Positions 5,716-16,342 of a stretch of 35,494 bases of DNA are shown piece after piece; position 1 is the stretch's first letter, and each line of letters starts with the position of its first letter. The notes below the pieces were generated by a model that searched no databases, was not told the origin of the DNA, and worked only from the letters and a program-made list of their open reading frames with translations. Source of the stretch: an uncultured Cellvibrionales bacterium (GTDB taxonomy: Bacteria > Pseudomonadota > Gammaproteobacteria > Pseudomonadales > Cellvibrionaceae); contig CAJWZU010000028.1 in NCBI GenBank assembly GCA_913050115.1, positions 1 to 35,494 on the forward strand, read 5' to 3'. The position numbers were made by a program, and so were the translations under genes.

Positions 5716-7098
5716 TTAAACTTTGTCGTAGACCGACTCGACACTTCGCCCAGTATCACCGCCTACGGCAGTAGTTCTGGCAGGCCTAGATTCAACATTA
5801 AATAGCTGACCCGGCTTGAACTTTAGTACCGGCAACCAGCGCCCCACCCAAGCGAACATACCATGCTTTTCGATATAGGCCGAGTAGGCAATATAATCGG
5901 CATCCATCGACAAGTGCCTCTCTTCAGTGCGCGAACGGAAAAAGTAAATGACATTTTGCAGAATCAACAGCAAACTCAAACGCAGCTTGTCATCAAATTC
6001 GGGCGCCATTAAAAACGGCATAAAGATCAACCACCAAGACAAATTCTTACTGATATAGGCCGGATGCTTAGTGTAGCGATAAGCGCCGTTAGTAAGAATA
6101 CCTCGATGGGTAAGGTTGGAGAAGCGAATGCCAAAGGCCATGCTGGCCCAAACATAGATCACCACCAGCGACAGAATGACGGCGCCGTAAGAGAAGTGCA
6201 CCCAGGGCATATCCCAAAACAAGTTGCTCCAGTCACGGCCGCTGTTATAGCTGATGTAAAGGCTACCAAACACCGCGCCCCAAAATGGTTGGTAACACAT
6301 AACAGCGACTACCCAGCCAAGGAAGGTCGGCTCGGTAGAGCGAATGTGCGAATCGAATAAGCGCACAGTAAAGCAATACCCGACAGTGACAAACAATAGG
6401 TCGATGTAGAACAGGAAGTTATTGAAAAAACTATAAAGATTGAGTGACATACGTCCACTGAGATCGCCACTCAGGTTAAATACATTCGAGAAATTGACAT
6501 TAATAAGGCTATTAAGGTTGTTGCCAGAGTATCTAAACATCAGCGGCAAGAAGAACAGTTTTACTGTCCAGCCCAGCAGTAACTGGCCTATTTTGGCCCA
6601 GCTAATCTCGCTCCACTGCCCCAGCACCAACATACCCATATGCCAATAGCCGTCTTTGGGCTCCGTCATAGCTCGGTCGATAAAATAAAAATATGGAATA
6701 GCAACCAACATCAAACCGATGAGTATGGTTCTTAGTATCGAGAAAAACCCCTCATAGTAGCCGCCGCGATACTCTGGAAAAATCCAGTAGATAAAAGCCA
6801 CAAAACCGAAACTGGCGTAAAGCCCCAGTAGTTTAATGGCCGTGCGTTTGAGGTTGCCGGAACGCTTACTCTTAGCAGCACTAAAATCGAGCCCTGCTGA
6901 CTTATTGCGGTAAGGCTTGAGGAATATCCACTCCAGCACAATGATCGGTACCGCCAATGCCAGACAAGTAATGATTATACCGCCGGTAGCCGCCGAGTAG
7001 TGCTGGCCATATTCGCGCAGCCACCAGATAGAGGCCAGTGAAATAAATAATCCAATACAGTTGATCAGCATATTGGTGGGGGATTTTGGACACGTCAT
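5716..7098 (-). CDS. Multi-pass membrane protein with isoprenylcysteine methyltransferase-like C-terminal domain
   Basis: The 460-residue protein has about ten hydrophobic segments over its full length. The C-terminal third carries the signatures of the ICMT/PEMT membrane methyltransferase family: GAYRYTKHPAY at residues 338-348 and RTEERHLSMDADYIAYSAY at 390-408, where the paired Glu is typical. These enzymes methylate lipids or prenyl/thiol groups with S-adenosylmethionine in the membrane. Usual bacterial members have 150-220 residues, so the N-terminal ~300 residues are an extra membrane domain I do not recognise. The first codons have a weak ribosome binding site, and the ATG at 7071 is an alternative start. 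It is monocistronic, with the 5575-5616 terminator downstream. The substrate is unknown. Confidence 0.85.
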   Translation of the reverse strand: MTCPKSPTNMLINCIGLFISLASIWWLREYGQHYSAATGGIIITCLALAVPIIVLEWIFLKPYRNKSAGLDFSAAKSKRSGNLKRTAIKLLGLYASFGFVAFIYWIFPEYRGGYYEGFFSILRTILIGLMLVAIPYFYFIDRAMTEPKDGYWHMGMLVLGQWSEISWAKIGQLLLGWTVKLFFLPLMFRYSGNNLNSLINVNFSNVFNLSGDLSGRMSLNLYSFFNNFLFYIDLLFVTVGYCFTVRLFDSHIRSTEPTFLGWVVAVMCYQPFWGAVFGSLYISYNSGRDWSNLFWDMPWVHFSYGAVILSLVVIYVWASMAFGIRFSNLTHRGILTNGAYRYTKHPAYISKNLSWWLIFMPFLMAPEFDDKLRLSLLLILQNVIYFFRSRTEERHLSMDADYIAYSAYIEKHGMFAWVGRWLPVLKFKPGQLFNVESRPARTTAVGGDTGRSVESVYDKV

Positions 7099-8141: not shown

Positions 8142-8678
8142 ATGGCATTATTAACCCGTATTGTTTTTATCAGCGCACTCTTTTTGCTGGGCTCTAATGC
8201 GAGTTATTCAGAGGAATTCTACACACTGCAGTTTAATGTGTCGCCACAGCAGGAAGGGTCATTGCAGCGTTTAACCCAACTGCAGAAAATTCACAGTGCC
8301 ACTCTTTCCCAACAAGAACACTTTGTTTTTTTAGGGAGCTTTTCCAGCGAGCGAAAAGCGACCGAGCAGCTGGTGCTCATTCAGCGCAAAATAGAGCCAC
8401 AAATTGGTAATTTTAACCCGCTAGTAGTCGAGCTATTTCGCAATCGAAGCGACCAAATTGAACCGCTCTCTATGGCTCGACAGAAACGTCTCAAGCTCGC
8501 CCCCGAAACGCTGCGAGCACGACCGGCCAGCGACCATACAACCCTCACACCTAAGGTAGCCGCTAATGCGGCTGTGGCTGCCGATTACCAAACTCCAGCC
8601 TTTACATCGGCCCAGACAGCACAGCCCAGACCGGTATTAACCGTCGAAAAGGCTACAGCATTGAAATTAGCGAATTAG
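8142..8678 (+). CDS. Secreted SPOR-like protein, paralogue of the gene at 9008
   Basis: The 178-residue protein begins with a Sec signal peptide (residues 1-23, hydrophobic core IVFISALFLLGS, cleavage near SYS/EE). The mature part starts with FYTLQFNVSPQQ and has HFVFLGSFSSERKATEQL and NPLVVELF, a beta-alpha-beta-like layout similar to a SPOR (sporulation-related, peptidoglycan-binding) repeat. This pattern recurs in the product of the gene at 9008 (FFTLQLQAAPSQ, QFVYLGKFKSAEQAQEIL, EPLVMELY). The remaining ~70 residues are Ala/Pro/Thr-rich and low in complexity. The SPOR assignment is inferred from pattern only. A second open frame overlaps the 3' end and may be the shifted continuation (see 8567-8860). 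Confidence 0.75.
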   Translation: MALLTRIVFISALFLLGSNASYSEEFYTLQFNVSPQQEGSLQRLTQLQKIHSATLSQQEHFVFLGSFSSERKATEQLVLIQRKIEPQIGNFNPLVVELFRNRSDQIEPLSMARQKRLKLAPETLRARPASDHTTLTPKVAANAAVAADYQTPAFTSAQTAQPRPVLTVEKATALKLAN

Positions 8679-8860
8679 ACAACAATTTGCAATTCCGCAA
8701 CTCAATTGACGATCACTTAAGCGGCGATTTTTACTGCAACACTGACATTAACGGGCTGAACTTTATTGATATAGGTGTGCATGGCATTACTCCAACATCA
8801 AACAGAGCCTGCAAAAAGCGGCCGCTTGGGACCACCTTTCATCATAGAGTATCACTCTGA
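8567..8860 (+). pseudogene. Possible frameshifted extension of the SPOR-like gene
   Basis: In frame 2, the bases from 8567 to the TGA at 8858-8860 form 97 codons without a stop and without ATG or GTG. The translation from about 8620 contains INRRKGYSIEISELDNNLQF, which looks like ordinary protein. It overlaps the last 37 codons of the SPOR-like gene in a different frame. A single indel near 8610-8650 would fuse the two and replace the low-complexity tail. It could also be chance; an open stretch this long is not rare enough to prove coding. Confidence 0.35.
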
Positions 8861-9007
8861 ATCAGCTTCGATTAACGCCTTGCCATTAAAGTGTCCAACA
8901 TAAAAGGCCAACATCTCTGTGTTAGCCGCGCATAAACCGATTCTTTTTTTCTTATCAGTGCTGCTATTATGTTAGCAGAATCACCTAACTCGAGAGCAGC
9001 TCCGTTC

Positions 9008-9319
9008 ATGAAGATCATTCTTTCCTCAGTGTCTATTACCCTGTTATTTTTGACTCAAGCCGTCTTCGCCGATACCTTTTTTACCCTGCAGCTGCAAGCT
9101 GCACCCAGCCAAAAAGAGTCCTTATCGCAGCATCTTTCGTTGCCCGTCATGCACAGTGAAACCTTTGGCCCTAGGCAGCAATTTGTCTACTTGGGTAAAT
9201 TTAAGTCAGCCGAGCAAGCACAAGAGATACTTAATGTACTACGTAAAAAAGAGTTAGAACCACCGGTGCAACTTTTTGAGCCGCTGGTGATGGAGCTGTA
9301 TACCGCCAAAAAACAATGA
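9008..9319 (+). CDS. Secreted SPOR-like protein, paralogue of the gene at 8142
   Basis: I start at the ATG at 9008, where a signal peptide begins (MKIILSSVSITLLFLTQAVF, cleavage after AFA-like VFA/DT); the earlier ATG at 8969 would put 13 polar residues in front. The mature 80-residue protein is FFTLQLQAAPSQKESLSQHL, then a middle with QFVYLGKFKSAEQAQEIL and the end EPLVMELYTAKKQ. It aligns with residues 25-100 of the product of the 8142 gene along its whole length, so the pair arose by duplication. It would be a small periplasmic protein. Binding to peptidoglycan or to denuded glycan is a family-based guess. There is no obvious terminator between this gene and the next one, which is on the opposite strand. 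Confidence 0.8.
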   Translation: MKIILSSVSITLLFLTQAVFADTFFTLQLQAAPSQKESLSQHLSLPVMHSETFGPRQQFVYLGKFKSAEQAQEILNVLRKKELEPPVQLFEPLVMELYTAKKQ

Positions 9320-9488: not shown

Positions 9489-10298
9489 TCAACTTTCATA
9501 GCAATCAATTATTTCTCGCACTAAACCGCTGCGTACAATATCGGCGCGAACAAATTCATGCACATGGATATTAGCTAACTTACCCAAGCGCTGTGTAGCA
9601 TCGGCCAAACCATTGGCACCGCGGATATCGCTCTGAGCAACATCGCCGTTAATCACCACTTTGCAGTTTTCACCGATGCGCGTAAGGAACATTTTCATCT
9701 GCGCTGGGGTGGTGTTTTGCGCCTCGTCTAAAATTACAAAAGTATTGCTATCGAAGGTTTTACCGCGCATATAGGCCAGCGGCGCCGCCACTATACGACC
9801 ATGTTTTAGAGCGTAGTTAACGGTGCCAGCACCCAGACGTTGATTGAGAATATCGCGAAATGCATCGATATAAACGGCAAATTTATCGTCGACAGCACCG
9901 GGTAAAAAGCCAAGATTCTCTCCCGCTTCTACCGCCGGCCGAGTCAAAATAATCCGTTCGATACGACCGCTCTCCAGTGCTGCGGCCGCCAGTGCTCCCG
10001 CACAATAACTCTTGCCGGTACCAGCAGGACCAATACCAAAGGTGAGATCGTATTTTTCAATGGCGCCAATATATTGCTGCTGCGCTGGATTTTTAGCGAC
10101 CAAGGGTGTCATAACACGCGGAGGTGAATAACTGGTTTGCAAGTTACCTGATGGGTCTAATTCGATCACGTTACTATCAGCCCGCACTTTTTTACGCGAG
10201 CGACCGTGATTGCGATCGTCGCTAGAGCTGTGACTCTGAGCATGATTATTGTGGCTATTGCGATGAGGATTGCGTTTTGCGTGAGATTTCTTAGCCAT
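9489..10298 (-). CDS. phoH: PhoH family ATPase
   Basis: This 269-residue cytoplasmic NTPase belongs to the PhoH family, which is induced by phosphate starvation in E. coli and is linked to RNA metabolism in other bacteria. The helicase-like P-loop GPAGTGKS lies at residues 90-97 and the Walker B/DEAQ motif VILDEAQN at 188-195; AEQ-like and Arg-finger segments follow (INGDVAQSDIRG, ADIVRSGLVREII). The first ~45 residues are an unusually His/Arg/Asn/Ser-rich basic tail, which may bind nucleic acid. The start at 10298 is followed directly by this tail and is preceded by GGGGAATACT, a fair ribosome binding site. It ends at the terminator at 9366-9411. No clear Pho box was found. Confidence 0.93.
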   Translation of the reverse strand: MAKKSHAKRNPHRNSHNNHAQSHSSSDDRNHGRSRKKVRADSNVIELDPSGNLQTSYSPPRVMTPLVAKNPAQQQYIGAIEKYDLTFGIGPAGTGKSYCAGALAAAALESGRIERIILTRPAVEAGENLGFLPGAVDDKFAVYIDAFRDILNQRLGAGTVNYALKHGRIVAAPLAYMRGKTFDSNTFVILDEAQNTTPAQMKMFLTRIGENCKVVINGDVAQSDIRGANGLADATQRLGKLANIHVHEFVRADIVRSGLVREIIDCYES

Positions 10299-12074: not shown

Positions 12075-12707
12075 ATGCTCATGACTCGCCATATGGCTTT
12101 ATTTGTTACTACATTTTTGGTCGCCGTATTCGTCAATGCCGCCGATGACTCCGCAAAAGAAACTAACAGATCGCTTTTTATCGATCAAAGTCAAAGTGAC
12201 TCTACCCAAAAATCTGACAAAGTGCCGGTCGCCAGTAGTGAGATCGCCTGGTCGCAGGGCCCCGGAAAGTGGCAAGTATTGCGCCATCTTAAGGATACAG
12301 AGAAAGAATACTACTCGGCCAATAGCGCCGAAGGCGCCGAGTACATGTCGCTGTCAACGCTTTTTACGCCGAAAAAATACTGTGAAGATGGCAAATCATT
12401 TATTGCGGCAAAACTGTCCAGCCCGACGCCCTTTAGCGCTAAGAAAGTTGGCCAAGTTACCACCCAATTTGACAATCTCGAATCGCGCAGTTTTAGTACC
12501 GATTATATATTTACCGAAGGCAGTCATATTATTTGGATTGATTTACCAACAGAGTTTCATACCCAAGCCCACCTCTTTCAAACACTCAGCTTACGCACTG
12601 ATGACTACCTTAAAGGGGCGCCGGTTCGAAAGATTCCGCTGTCGGGCTCTATAAAAGCACTTCAGAAAGCGCAAAAACTTTGCTATCGACTATTGCTAAG
12701 AATGTAA
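12075..12707 (+). CDS. Secreted protein of unknown function
   Basis: The protein has 210 residues. A Sec signal peptide covers about residues 1-22 (hydrophobic core ALFVTTFLVAVFV, cleavage near VNA/AD). The mature protein is polar, with a Ser/Lys/Asp-rich N-terminal ~40 residues and then a folded-looking domain with WSQGPGKWQVLRHL and HIIWIDLPTEFHTQ. There are two Cys (about residues 111 and 202), which could form a disulfide. The start may be the ATG at 12081 instead, but AGGA lies about 10 bases upstream of 12075. I do not recognise the family. It is 130 bases upstream of a sugar symporter on the same strand, so a shared role is possible but only by position. Confidence 0.7.
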   Translation: MLMTRHMALFVTTFLVAVFVNAADDSAKETNRSLFIDQSQSDSTQKSDKVPVASSEIAWSQGPGKWQVLRHLKDTEKEYYSANSAEGAEYMSLSTLFTPKKYCEDGKSFIAAKLSSPTPFSAKKVGQVTTQFDNLESRSFSTDYIFTEGSHIIWIDLPTEFHTQAHLFQTLSLRTDDYLKGAPVRKIPLSGSIKALQKAQKLCYRLLLRM

Positions 12708-12837: not shown

Positions 12838-14553
12838 ATGGCAATAAGCTCACCCAGTGCTGCCACTAGCCCTAGTGCTAACGCCACCTCAGGCGACACA
12901 AAAAAATACACAGTTGCTTTGATATTACTGGTAACACTGTTCTTTATGATCGGTTTTATCACCGTACTTAACGATGTGCTGCTGCCGCGCCTTAAAGGTC
13001 TGTTCGAGCTGTCCAATCGCGATGCCATGTTGATTATATTTGTGTTTTTCGGCGCATACCTCATTTGGTCCTACCCAGCCGGCGCCCTAGTAAGAAAAAT
13101 AGGCTACAAAAAAGGCATAATTCTGGCGCTGGTCACCGTCGCTCTTGGGCTCGCAACTTTTATTCCCGCCGCCCACTCGGTTGTCTATGGCTTATTCTTA
13201 ATCGCGCTCTTTATTACCGCCTCGGGTTTGGCCATTTTACAAGTGTGCATCAACCCCTACATTATTGCCTTAGGGCCAGAAAAGACCGGTGCCGCGCGCC
13301 TAAACCTTGGTGGCGCCATGAACTCTGCCGCTACCTTTATAGGTCCGATAATTGGTGGCGCTTTTATTTTGCAACACGTGGCAGCGCCGGACTTACCCGA
13401 CCCCCGCGATATTATGACCGTTAAGCAGGCCTACTCGATTGAACAAAGCGTCGAGCCTATCGCCAGTAATACCGCCCTTACCGCAGTTCAAAATATTTTT
13501 AACTATAAAATAGTATTGCAATCTATACCCAGCCCGGCAATGTCAGTCGGCACATCAATAAAAGACATTGATGAACTCAGTGATGAGGCCGCCAGTTCAA
13601 TGCTCGTCGTCATCAGACCCGATGTCGTTGGCACTCTCAACAATTCTGATTTTAAGCCCATAGAGACTCAAGCCAACAGTGCATGGAAGGCCTACCAACT
13701 GAAAAAAGCCGATTCAGTAGTGTTGCCCTACCTAGGGCTCTGCGTTGTAACCTTTTTAATCGCCTTAGCACTGGTGTATATCAAACTGCCAAAAATGAGC
13801 CATGAAGAGCCGGCCAATACCGAAGAGGCGAACCACGAGCTAATAGGTTCAGCATTTAACTATCTCCATATGAAGCTGGGTGCCTTGGCTATTTTCTTTT
13901 ATGTCGGTGTTGAAGTCTCTATTGGCGCAGGGCTGATTCTATACTTAGAGGAGGAGTCCATGGGGGCACTCAGCCACCAGTCGGCGGCCTATCTTTTAGC
14001 CTATTACTGGGGCAGCGCTATGATTGGTCGCTTTATCGGCTCTTACCTCGGCATTAAAGTCAGCGCTCAAGTAATGCTTCGCTATGTGAGTGTCGCCGCT
14101 TTAGTGCTACTAGGATTAAGCTATCTACCACCGTTGTTAAATAGCTGGATCCATGTGCCGGTTATTGCTATGACTCACGATCCATTCAGTATTGGCTTTA
14201 TCGATGTCACCATTCCATTAGCCGCTTTGTGTTTAGTACTCTGTGGTCTCTGCCACTCGGTTATGTGGCCGTCAATTTTTTCGCTCGGCATCGCCAAACT
14301 CGGCAAATACACCTCGCAGGCCTCGGGCATTATGGTGATGGGCGTGTTTGGCGGCGCCGTTATCCCCCTTGCCATCGGCTGGATCGCCGATTATCAGGGC
14401 TTCCAAATCAGCTTCGGACTGTGCGCTCTGTGTTATATCTACATTCTCTTCTATGCCCTGAAGGGTTACAAAATGGGCAAGATTGCTGACATGGCCGAGG
14501 ACGAAGTGCTCGGTACCGACGGCAAGCCTCACAAGCGGGATGAATTTGGCTAG
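12838..14553 (+). CDS. FucP/GluP-family sugar:H+ symporter with a large periplasmic loop
   Basis: This 571-residue major-facilitator protein belongs to the fucose/glucose-galactose symporter (FHS) family, which imports hexoses or related sugars across the inner membrane with protons. Family landmarks are VLNDVLLPRLKGLF in helix 1, GYKKGIILAL, LQVCINPYIIALGPEK and, in the second half, CHSVMWPSIFSLGIAKLGK and ASGIMVMGVFGGAVIPLAIG. Typical members have 410-450 residues. The excess is a roughly 100-residue hydrophilic insertion at about residues 187-293, between helices 5 and 6, on the periplasmic side if the usual topology holds. The substrate cannot be told. The ribosome binding site AAGGA lies seven bases before the start. 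Confidence 0.92.
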   Translation: MAISSPSAATSPSANATSGDTKKYTVALILLVTLFFMIGFITVLNDVLLPRLKGLFELSNRDAMLIIFVFFGAYLIWSYPAGALVRKIGYKKGIILALVTVALGLATFIPAAHSVVYGLFLIALFITASGLAILQVCINPYIIALGPEKTGAARLNLGGAMNSAATFIGPIIGGAFILQHVAAPDLPDPRDIMTVKQAYSIEQSVEPIASNTALTAVQNIFNYKIVLQSIPSPAMSVGTSIKDIDELSDEAASSMLVVIRPDVVGTLNNSDFKPIETQANSAWKAYQLKKADSVVLPYLGLCVVTFLIALALVYIKLPKMSHEEPANTEEANHELIGSAFNYLHMKLGALAIFFYVGVEVSIGAGLILYLEEESMGALSHQSAAYLLAYYWGSAMIGRFIGSYLGIKVSAQVMLRYVSVAALVLLGLSYLPPLLNSWIHVPVIAMTHDPFSIGFIDVTIPLAALCLVLCGLCHSVMWPSIFSLGIAKLGKYTSQASGIMVMGVFGGAVIPLAIGWIADYQGFQISFGLCALCYIYILFYALKGYKMGKIADMAEDEVLGTDGKPHKRDEFG

Positions 14554-14983: not shown

Positions 14984-16342
14984 ATGAGTAATAATAAACC
15001 CCAAACTAGCTACATAGTGCCGATGGCGATCATCGCTGCGCTATTCTTTGTTTTCGGTTTCGTCACCTGGCTCAACGGTGCACTGATTCCTTTTCTGAAG
15101 ATGATTTGTGACCTAACTGCCTTTCAGGCGATGCTAGTAGCATCTTCTTTTTATGCCGCTTACACCGTTATGGCATTGCCATCGGCGTCTGTGCTTGAGC
15201 GTATTGGCTATAAAAAAGGTATGGCCCTGGGCCTGCTGGTCATCGCCGCTGGCGCACTGATCTTTATTCCGGCCGCTTACAGCCGCAACTTCGGCGTATT
15301 CCTGCTGGGACAATTTGTGGTAGGTACAGGTCTGACCTTGCTTCAAACCGCCGTTAACCCGTATGTGGTTAAACTTGGACCGAGTGAATCTGCTGCTGTG
15401 CGTATCTGCATCATGGGCTTGCTCAACAAAGCCGCCGGTGTTGTTGCCCCGATTGTTTTCAGTATTTTGGTTCTGTCAGGCATTACCGGTGCATCTGAAT
15501 CTGAAATTGCTTTGCTCTCTGATGTTGCTAAAGATGCCAAGCTGAATGAATTGGCCGGCCAGTTAGTGACACCTTACATCGGTATGGCTATTGTGCTGGC
15601 GGTCTTAGCCGTTGCAATGCTGTTCGCGCCTATCCCTGATATCGAAGACGAATTGACAGAAGGTCAGGACGACAGCGAAGTCACTTTGGCGGGCGTGTTC
15701 CAGTACCCACAACTGATCCTAGGCGCGATTGCCTTGTTCTTCTACGTTGGTGTAGAAGTTATCGCCGGCGACGCCATTGGCCTGCTGGGCAGCCAGGTTG
15801 GTCTCGATACCGCTGTTGCCAGTATGTTGACCTCTTACACCATGATATTCATGGTGTTCGGTTACCTCTACGGTACCTTCGCTATTCCACGCTTGATCAG
15901 CCAGCAAACTGCACTGCTGTTCTCTGCGGTCATGGGTATTGCTTTCACATTTTTCGTAATGTATGGCTCCACTACCAGCACCTCGATCTCTGCGTCCACT
16001 TTGGCAATGTTCGGTCTGCCGGAAATTCCTAACGCGGTGTTCTTCGTTGCTCTGCTCGGCTTCGCCAACGCCATGGTATGGCCTGCTATCTGGCCTCTAG
16101 CGCTGGAAGGCTTGGGCAAATACAGTAGTAAAGGTGCCGCACTGTTAATTATGGGCATCTCTGGTGGCGCAGTATTGCCGCTACTGTATGGTCACTTTGC
16201 CGATGGAAGCGATGTTAACGCGGGTCAGATGGCCTTTGTCGTAACTATTCCTGCCTATGCCTTCATCTTGTTCTACGCTGTCAAAGGCCACAAGATTAAG
16301 AGCTGGTCAAAAAAAAATAGCCCTGTACAGCAAGACGCTTAA
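14984..16342 (+). CDS. FucP/GluP-family sugar:H+ symporter
   Basis: This 452-residue inner-membrane symporter is from the same family as the upstream gene and is of normal length. Landmarks are FGFVTWLNGALIPFLK in helix 1, ERIGYKKGMALGLLVIAAG, LLQTAVNPYVVKLGP, and AMVWPAIWPLALEGLGK with GISGGAVLPLLYGHFAD in the second half. The loop between helices 5 and 6 is only about 35 residues. Its codon use is more biased (many CTG, GGT, GCT) than that of the neighbour, which suggests high expression. AGGA lies about 11 bases before the start. A strong terminator follows. The substrate is uncertain; hexose or N-acetylglucosamine are the usual candidates in this family. Confidence 0.94.
   Translation: MSNNKPQTSYIVPMAIIAALFFVFGFVTWLNGALIPFLKMICDLTAFQAMLVASSFYAAYTVMALPSASVLERIGYKKGMALGLLVIAAGALIFIPAAYSRNFGVFLLGQFVVGTGLTLLQTAVNPYVVKLGPSESAAVRICIMGLLNKAAGVVAPIVFSILVLSGITGASESEIALLSDVAKDAKLNELAGQLVTPYIGMAIVLAVLAVAMLFAPIPDIEDELTEGQDDSEVTLAGVFQYPQLILGAIALFFYVGVEVIAGDAIGLLGSQVGLDTAVASMLTSYTMIFMVFGYLYGTFAIPRLISQQTALLFSAVMGIAFTFFVMYGSTTSTSISASTLAMFGLPEIPNAVFFVALLGFANAMVWPAIWPLALEGLGKYSSKGAALLIMGISGGAVLPLLYGHFADGSDVNAGQMAFVVTIPAYAFILFYAVKGHKIKSWSKKNSPVQQDA

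Follow-up and report, generated by a model that had tools for sequence, protein, structure and literature searches.

Two small open reading frames, ORF A and ORF B, stand in tandem on the + strand of the window (the whole stretch of 35,494 nucleotides analysed here), 329 bases apart and convergent with the gene for a short PhoH protein (9489-10298). They raise the question of whether their products are ordinary SPOR proteins, exported proteins of another kind or the relics of something larger. The original prediction had described them as secreted paralogues with a SPOR-like pattern.

Two tandem, exported-looking paralogues

The features of the pair are listed below, where 'N-type' is our label for the divergent first domain of secreted multi-SPOR proteins. 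The ORF list starts ORF B at an ATG at 8969; the signal-peptide-like start lies at the ATG at 9008, which is the probable initiation codon and gives a product of 103 aa.

8142-8678, + strand: ORF A, 178 aa, with a signal-peptide-like start, an N-type SPOR-like domain and a 76-residue tail (ORF list, BLASTP, AlphaFold2, profiles)
8142-8210, + strand: signal-peptide-like segment of ORF A (hydropathy; cleavage site by eye)
8211-8447, + strand: N-type SPOR-like domain of ORF A (alignment, model, profiles)
8448-8675, + strand: low-complexity tail of ORF A, probably a former linker toward a second domain (model, codon usage)
9008-9319, + strand: ORF B, 103 aa, with a signal-peptide-like start and the N-type SPOR-like domain alone (ORF list, Pfam, BLASTP, AlphaFold2, profiles)
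9008-9070, + strand: signal-peptide-like segment of ORF B (hydropathy; cleavage site by eye)
9071-9316, + strand: N-type SPOR-like domain of ORF B (alignment, model, profiles)

BLASTP aligns ORF A with ORF B at 37% identity over 103 aa (E 2e-18), and their domains reach a Smith-Waterman score of 146 that was equalled in 0 of 1000 shuffles, which bears out the tandem paralogy claimed for them. The shared motifs described for the pair are all found, as FYTLQ, FVFLGSF and PLVVEL in ORF A and as FFTLQ, FVYLGKF and PLVMEL in ORF B. The signal peptides claimed for both agree with N-terminal hydrophobic cores whose best 12-residue mean hydropathy is 2.5 in ORF A and 2.4 in ORF B, with the cleavage sites placed by eye from the sequence, and the extra low-complexity tail of the first product is present as 76 residues modelled with low confidence. 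Both products, paralogues of each other, look exported and carry a single domain, of the N-type family. Promoter- and terminator-like sites were no commoner than chance, and the RNA-family matches were to tRNA-Lys only.

Several other features of the window and genome were recorded. A second PhoH-type match in the genome lies on contig C11 (19432-20037). The window also encodes a 460-aa membrane protein (5716-7098) with an ICMT-type match in its C-terminal part (28 bits, cut-off 24), a 210-aa ORF (12075-12707) that begins like a signal peptide and has no match in Pfam, and two adjoining transporter-like ORFs (12838-14553 and 14984-16342) that look like paralogues by eye, the first being longer through an insertion in mid-protein.

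Annotation and predicted fold

Pfam gives ORF B a SPOR match of 13.6 bits, under the cut-off of 21, and ORF A has no match of any kind in a Pfam scan; we therefore do not file either as a member of PF05036 and describe them as distant SPOR-like domains only. An NCBIfam scan matched neither ORF.

AlphaFold2 models were computed with the two paralogues as input. The model of ORF B has the order E-H-E-E-H-E (pLDDT 80.6, pTM 0.68), with a short and less certain last strand, and that of ORF A has the first five of these elements followed by the low-confidence tail (mean pLDDT 61.5). The predicted models thus contain the beta-alpha-beta-beta-alpha-beta order over about 70-80 residues. SPOR domains, which belong to the RNP-fold superfamily, are described with the same strand-helix order in PMC6895207.

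A Foldseek search with the ORF B model returned no match at E <= 0.001; the RlpA SPOR domain (6i09) ranked 22nd with an E of 0.046, behind mitoribosomal, PII-like and elongation-factor domains, and Klebsiella MzrA, a periplasmic protein, ranked 17th. No SPOR chain was among the best 50 matches listed by VIA-align, nor among the best 50 listed by Foldseek for the less reliable model of ORF A. When an 8-row family profile was run against the sequences of solved structures, the eight matches at E <= 10 included no SPOR chain; pentatricopeptide and PRP8 matches among solved structures were weak and were taken as chance. Many ferredoxin-like domains share the E-H-E-E-H-E order, and other ferredoxin-like proteins head the fold searches, so the predicted fold agrees with SPOR and is not decisive. 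The structural comparison proposed with the original prediction came out divided: both models share the order of strands and helices, but the fold searches place other ferredoxin-like proteins first.

Relatives of the pair in its own and other genomes

The genome assembly, of 2.72 Mb in 100 contigs, encodes three SPOR proteins above the Pfam cut-off, which by reading are FtsN-, DedD- and RlpA-like. It also holds a third relative of A and B, on contig C11 directly behind pnp. When a 3-row profile was searched against 144 genomes of the family, five genomes of genus g10 proved to have the domain (E 2e-7 to 3.6e-4). At E <= 1 this search matched 56 of the 144 genomes, among which the loci of the genome itself, the five g10 genomes, L105 and L106 were examined; the g10 tally counts matched genomes and not every g10 genome. 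L105 and L106 were not SPOR by eye and were discarded. In the g10 relatives the N-type domain is the first domain of a secreted protein, 615 to 645 aa long where complete, encoded behind pnp. The three g10 proteins that were scanned have Pfam SPOR matches of 35 to 47 bits downstream of this first domain, and their first domains, scanned alone, have no Pfam match.

With enriched profiles, two genomes of genus g14 were matched as well, one (G505) with a 397-aa protein that has a Pfam SPOR match of 33.3 bits and does not lie behind pnp within the stretch seen, the other (G503) with a 259-aa protein that carries the N-type domain and is encoded behind pnp. In total the domain was found in 8 of 143 genomes and 3 of 32 genera, all in one bacterial family. 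Thirty pnp loci, from the 61 genomes with a pnp match, were examined by eye, and four had such genes behind pnp, namely that of the genome itself and those of three g10 genomes. The order pcnB, folK, panB, SPOR gene, pnp is common to the genome itself and to a relative (G009) that has two genes more; the names in this order were assigned by eye except for pnp. The g10 loci also encode a SPOR protein of 117-118 aa between pnp and the multi-SPOR gene in four of five cases (for example L100, 2070-2423, Pfam 25.3 bits), and no such protein was seen beside pnp at the pnp locus of the genome itself.

A profile built without A and B, from the C11 copy, four g10 proteins and the G505 protein, recovered ORF B at 4.4e-7 and ORF A at 5.7e-6 in their own genome. 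Another, built from six proteins of other genomes only and run on 801 six-frame stretches of the window, placed B at 1.2e-7 and A at 1e-5, the next stretch having an E of 1.1. By their recovery with profiles built without them, A and B belong to the N-type domain family. In a tree of eight N-type domains no branch is well supported; A and B join at 85/91.

The pair as such was absent from every other genome examined, so the expectation that it would recur in relatives failed, the domain alone being present in two other genera of the family. A contig pattern scan with B gave 200 matching stretches, none of which encodes a relative; a search of 97 genomes with B and an 8-row profile search of 390 genomes of the order (E <= 0.001) each returned only the genome itself. 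Matches in G488 run across stop codons and were set aside as chance. No SPOR-like neighbour of phoH was seen at L020 or at five loci of close PhoH relatives (L190-L194, about 1500 bases viewed on each side), judged for the family profile on the best 40 of its 51 matches. The literature search found no paper that pairs a SPOR domain with Cellvibrio.

Likely distant homology to SPOR

Nine profile-profile comparisons, each with 150 column shuffles, were made between N-type profiles and SPOR sets, the mixed set comprising 33 canonical and 8 g10 domains:

Against the mixed SPOR set: pair 91.5%, three own copies 78.9%, all seven members 58.5%; reached by 0 of 150 shuffles each
Against the g10 SPOR domains alone: pair 83.3%, three own copies 63.8%, all seven members 75.5%; 0 of 150 shuffles each
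Against canonical SPOR alone (weak): pair 20.6%, three own copies 2.7%, all seven members 3.6%; 0, 2 and 3 of 150 shuffles

Searches outside the family point the same way. A 7-row profile run on 369 genomes of the class matched the genome itself and one outside protein, a DedD-like one (E 7.7e-5) with a Pfam SPOR match of 40.4 bits. With a 3-row profile on 390 genomes of the order (E <= 0.01), the genome itself and five weak outside matches were returned, one of which (L014) lies in a Pfam SPOR protein and another (L017) in a protein that is RlpA-like by eye; the other three look like chance. Since the profile-profile scores, the SPOR domains in the same polypeptides of relatives and the outside matches in SPOR proteins agree, we consider it likely, if not certain, that the N-type domain is distantly homologous to SPOR. 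The SPOR-like pattern originally described for the pair is supported as a distant relationship by the score of 91.5% and the SPOR domains downstream in relatives; against it, the Pfam cut-off is missed and the comparison of the pair with canonical domains alone reaches 20.6%.

The domain might instead be some other exported ferredoxin-like fold that resembles SPOR, a reading to which the place of the RlpA SPOR domain behind other ferredoxin-like domains in the fold search, and the failure of the family profiles to match a solved SPOR chain, would lend themselves. We consider this very unlikely, as the profile-profile match beats all 150 shuffles in seven of the nine comparisons, N-type and SPOR domains stand in the same polypeptides, and the outside matches fall in SPOR proteins.

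Interrupted and probably frame-shifted second domains

The copy on contig C11 and the sequence behind ORF A suggest what has become of the ordinary SPOR domain in this genome.

L008, 1087-1866 (pnp-linked copy on contig C11): third family member, whose N-type domain is separated from a second SPOR domain by a TGA in the reading frame
8654-8779 of the window, + strand: what is probably left of a second SPOR domain, lying in frame +2 with respect to ORF A (shuffled alignments, codon usage)

The C11 gene runs for 143 codons to a TGA, which is followed by 115 codons in the same frame that match the g10 SPOR profile at 5.4e-15 and stay open to their own stop; Pfam has no match to the piece behind the TGA, and by eye no ATG, GTG or TTG stands ahead of the second domain. 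Counted with the TGA the gene has 259 codons, which equals the length of the intact relative in G503 (259 aa). The assembly is unlikely to be poor throughout, because aroA, dapA, nadA, queC, queE and grx4, all encoded in the window, match their models over almost the full length; a local error is possible.

Behind ORF A, positions 8567 to 8860 form an open stretch in the +2 frame. The stretch 8654-8779 within it scores 56 against the second domain of the C11 gene and 57 against one g10 domain, each equalled in 0 of 5000 shuffles, and it ranks first of 82 stretches of the window against both domains and for the sum over nine domains. Its support is uneven across these nine SPOR domains: two gave 0 of 1000 shuffles, one gave 10 and the rest 18 to 648, so that five of the nine lack support at <= 2% of shuffles, and three further domains were equalled by 162, 1269 and 2405 of 5000 shuffles. 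Codon usage in the remnant frame scores 0.23 over 8645-8772, within the range of 0.17-0.44 for 22 genes of the window, and -0.05 over the whole open stretch. A frameshift-tolerant alignment scored 37.5; none of 60 shuffles came as high, but 2 of the 46 control stretches did, and SPOR profiles run on the window placed the stretch third at E 0.25, or lower at 1.6. The last third of the former second domain of ORF A (fragment f3) shows no recognisable similarity, and behind ORF B no second-domain-like stretch was seen. On these alignments, a remnant of a second SPOR domain probably lies out of frame behind ORF A.

Such damage raises the possibility that the family is decaying in this genome and that A, B and the pnp-linked copy are functionless relics. 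The TGA in the pnp-linked copy, the probable frame change behind ORF A, the missing second domain behind ORF B and a genome of 2.72 Mb, below most relatives listed in size, would all fit. We nevertheless regard general decay as quite unlikely, because all three N-type domains are open, each with a signal-peptide-like start, and their codon usage (0.18 for the domain of A, 0.25 for B and 0.33 for the pnp-linked ORF) falls inside the range of the window's genes.

Recoding, with readthrough of the TGA and a frameshift in ORF A, could also be imagined still to yield two-domain proteins, given that the C11 second domain is open to its own stop and that the core behind ORF A has gene-like codon usage in its frame. 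This is extremely unlikely: no recoding signal was identified, fragment f3 is unrecognisable and the intact relatives do without recoding.

Glycan-binding residues

PMC6895207 describes RlpA as contacting glycan through its backbone atoms, through Q270 (the glutamine in beta1) and through a basic patch of R302, R309 and R311, with much reduced binding in a triple arginine variant; the patch residues are said there to vary among SPOR domains. The beta1 glutamine is present in nine of nine N-type domains (eight aligned rows and the G503 protein). It was counted as any Q in residues 3-10, which is a crude criterion, so only the N-type count, checked against the alignment, is used. By eye, Glu occupies the aligned position in both second-domain stretches, the one that follows the TGA and the one that follows ORF A. 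A single K or R stands within the 16 residues that precede the beta3 Gly in A, and likewise in B; the N-type mean is 1.33 (0-3) and that of the 33 canonical domains 2.61 (1-4), the two ranges overlapping. In our alignment, A and B have F or Y at the places of the RlpA beta3 arginines, and a basic glycan-binding patch is not evident in either sequence.

These residues bear on whether A and B work as ordinary SPOR proteins that are soluble in the periplasm, bind denuded peptidoglycan and gather at the division septum. The invariant glutamine, which corresponds to a glycan-contact residue of RlpA, the large share of backbone atoms in glycan binding (both PMC6895207) and the distant SPOR homology seen by profile-profile comparison would all accommodate such a role. 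Against it stand the single basic residue of each protein before the beta3 Gly and the aromatic residues at the arginine positions, in a patch that itself varies among SPOR domains, together with the failure of A and B to reach the Pfam cut-off, and we judge the ordinary role unlikely, though a real prospect. From the retained beta1 glutamine and the lack of an evident basic patch, we infer that a protein partner, or a glycan modified in another way, is a likelier ligand of the N-type domain than the denuded glycan that a standard septal tag would bind. Among SPOR proteins there is a precedent for binding a partner: DamX and DedD are reported to stimulate PBP1A and PBP1B (PMC7642682). Peptidoglycan binding, and the cell-wall or septum function that the original prediction offered as possible, are putative for A and B.

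A proposed origin for the pair

We propose, as a reading with about an even chance of being right, that A and B are tandem-duplicated exported proteins of a single N-type domain, drawn from a multi-SPOR family, in which the ordinary SPOR domain has been lost or broken in this genome and the ligand has altered. In this narrow family of secreted envelope proteins, mostly encoded just behind pnp, an N-type domain would normally have at least one ordinary SPOR domain after it, and tandem duplication would have given A and B. With the ordinary SPOR domain absent in B, probably out of frame in A and behind the TGA stop in the pnp-linked copy, the products would be free N-type domains. Sec export would release each into the periplasm as a soluble protein that lacks an anchor and an enzyme part; at the wall, the N-type domain may engage a partner or a differently modified glycan, and an ordinary SPOR domain, where present, would engage denuded glycan. 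A broader version, in which a multi-SPOR envelope protein gave rise in this lineage, through separate SPOR losses, to several free N-type proteins with a new ligand or partner, is offered tentatively, as possible and somewhat doubtful.

What is new here is a divergent SPOR-like branch that stands alone in its own genome and is joined to ordinary SPOR domains elsewhere. Standard models miss it, though it occurs in the same polypeptides as recognised SPOR domains, and if our proposal is true, comparing it with them would be a natural way to learn which features of a SPOR domain the binding of denuded glycan needs. Its scope is narrow, three genera of one bacterial family among the genomes searched.

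Comparison with known systems

Like the SPOR domains of PF05036 in RlpA, FtsN, DedD and DamX, the domains of A and B have about 80 residues, the predicted element order of the RNP fold, the beta1 glutamine, LG-x-F/Y after beta3 and, apparently, export. They differ in lying below or outside the Pfam cut-off and in the basic patch, which is not evident, and no membrane anchor, lipobox or enzyme domain is seen in them. The small SPOR protein of 117 aa in g10 resembles A and B in being small, apparently exported and of one domain, but that domain is an ordinary SPOR domain above the Pfam cut-off. The pnp-linked multi-SPOR proteins of g10 and g14 share their first domain with A and B. In those proteins a CLSxG...C preamble precedes the domain and ordinary SPOR domains follow in frame, both of which A and B lack; A and B start directly with the N-type domain and adjoin phoH instead of pnp, so that the two groups have a domain in common and not an architecture.
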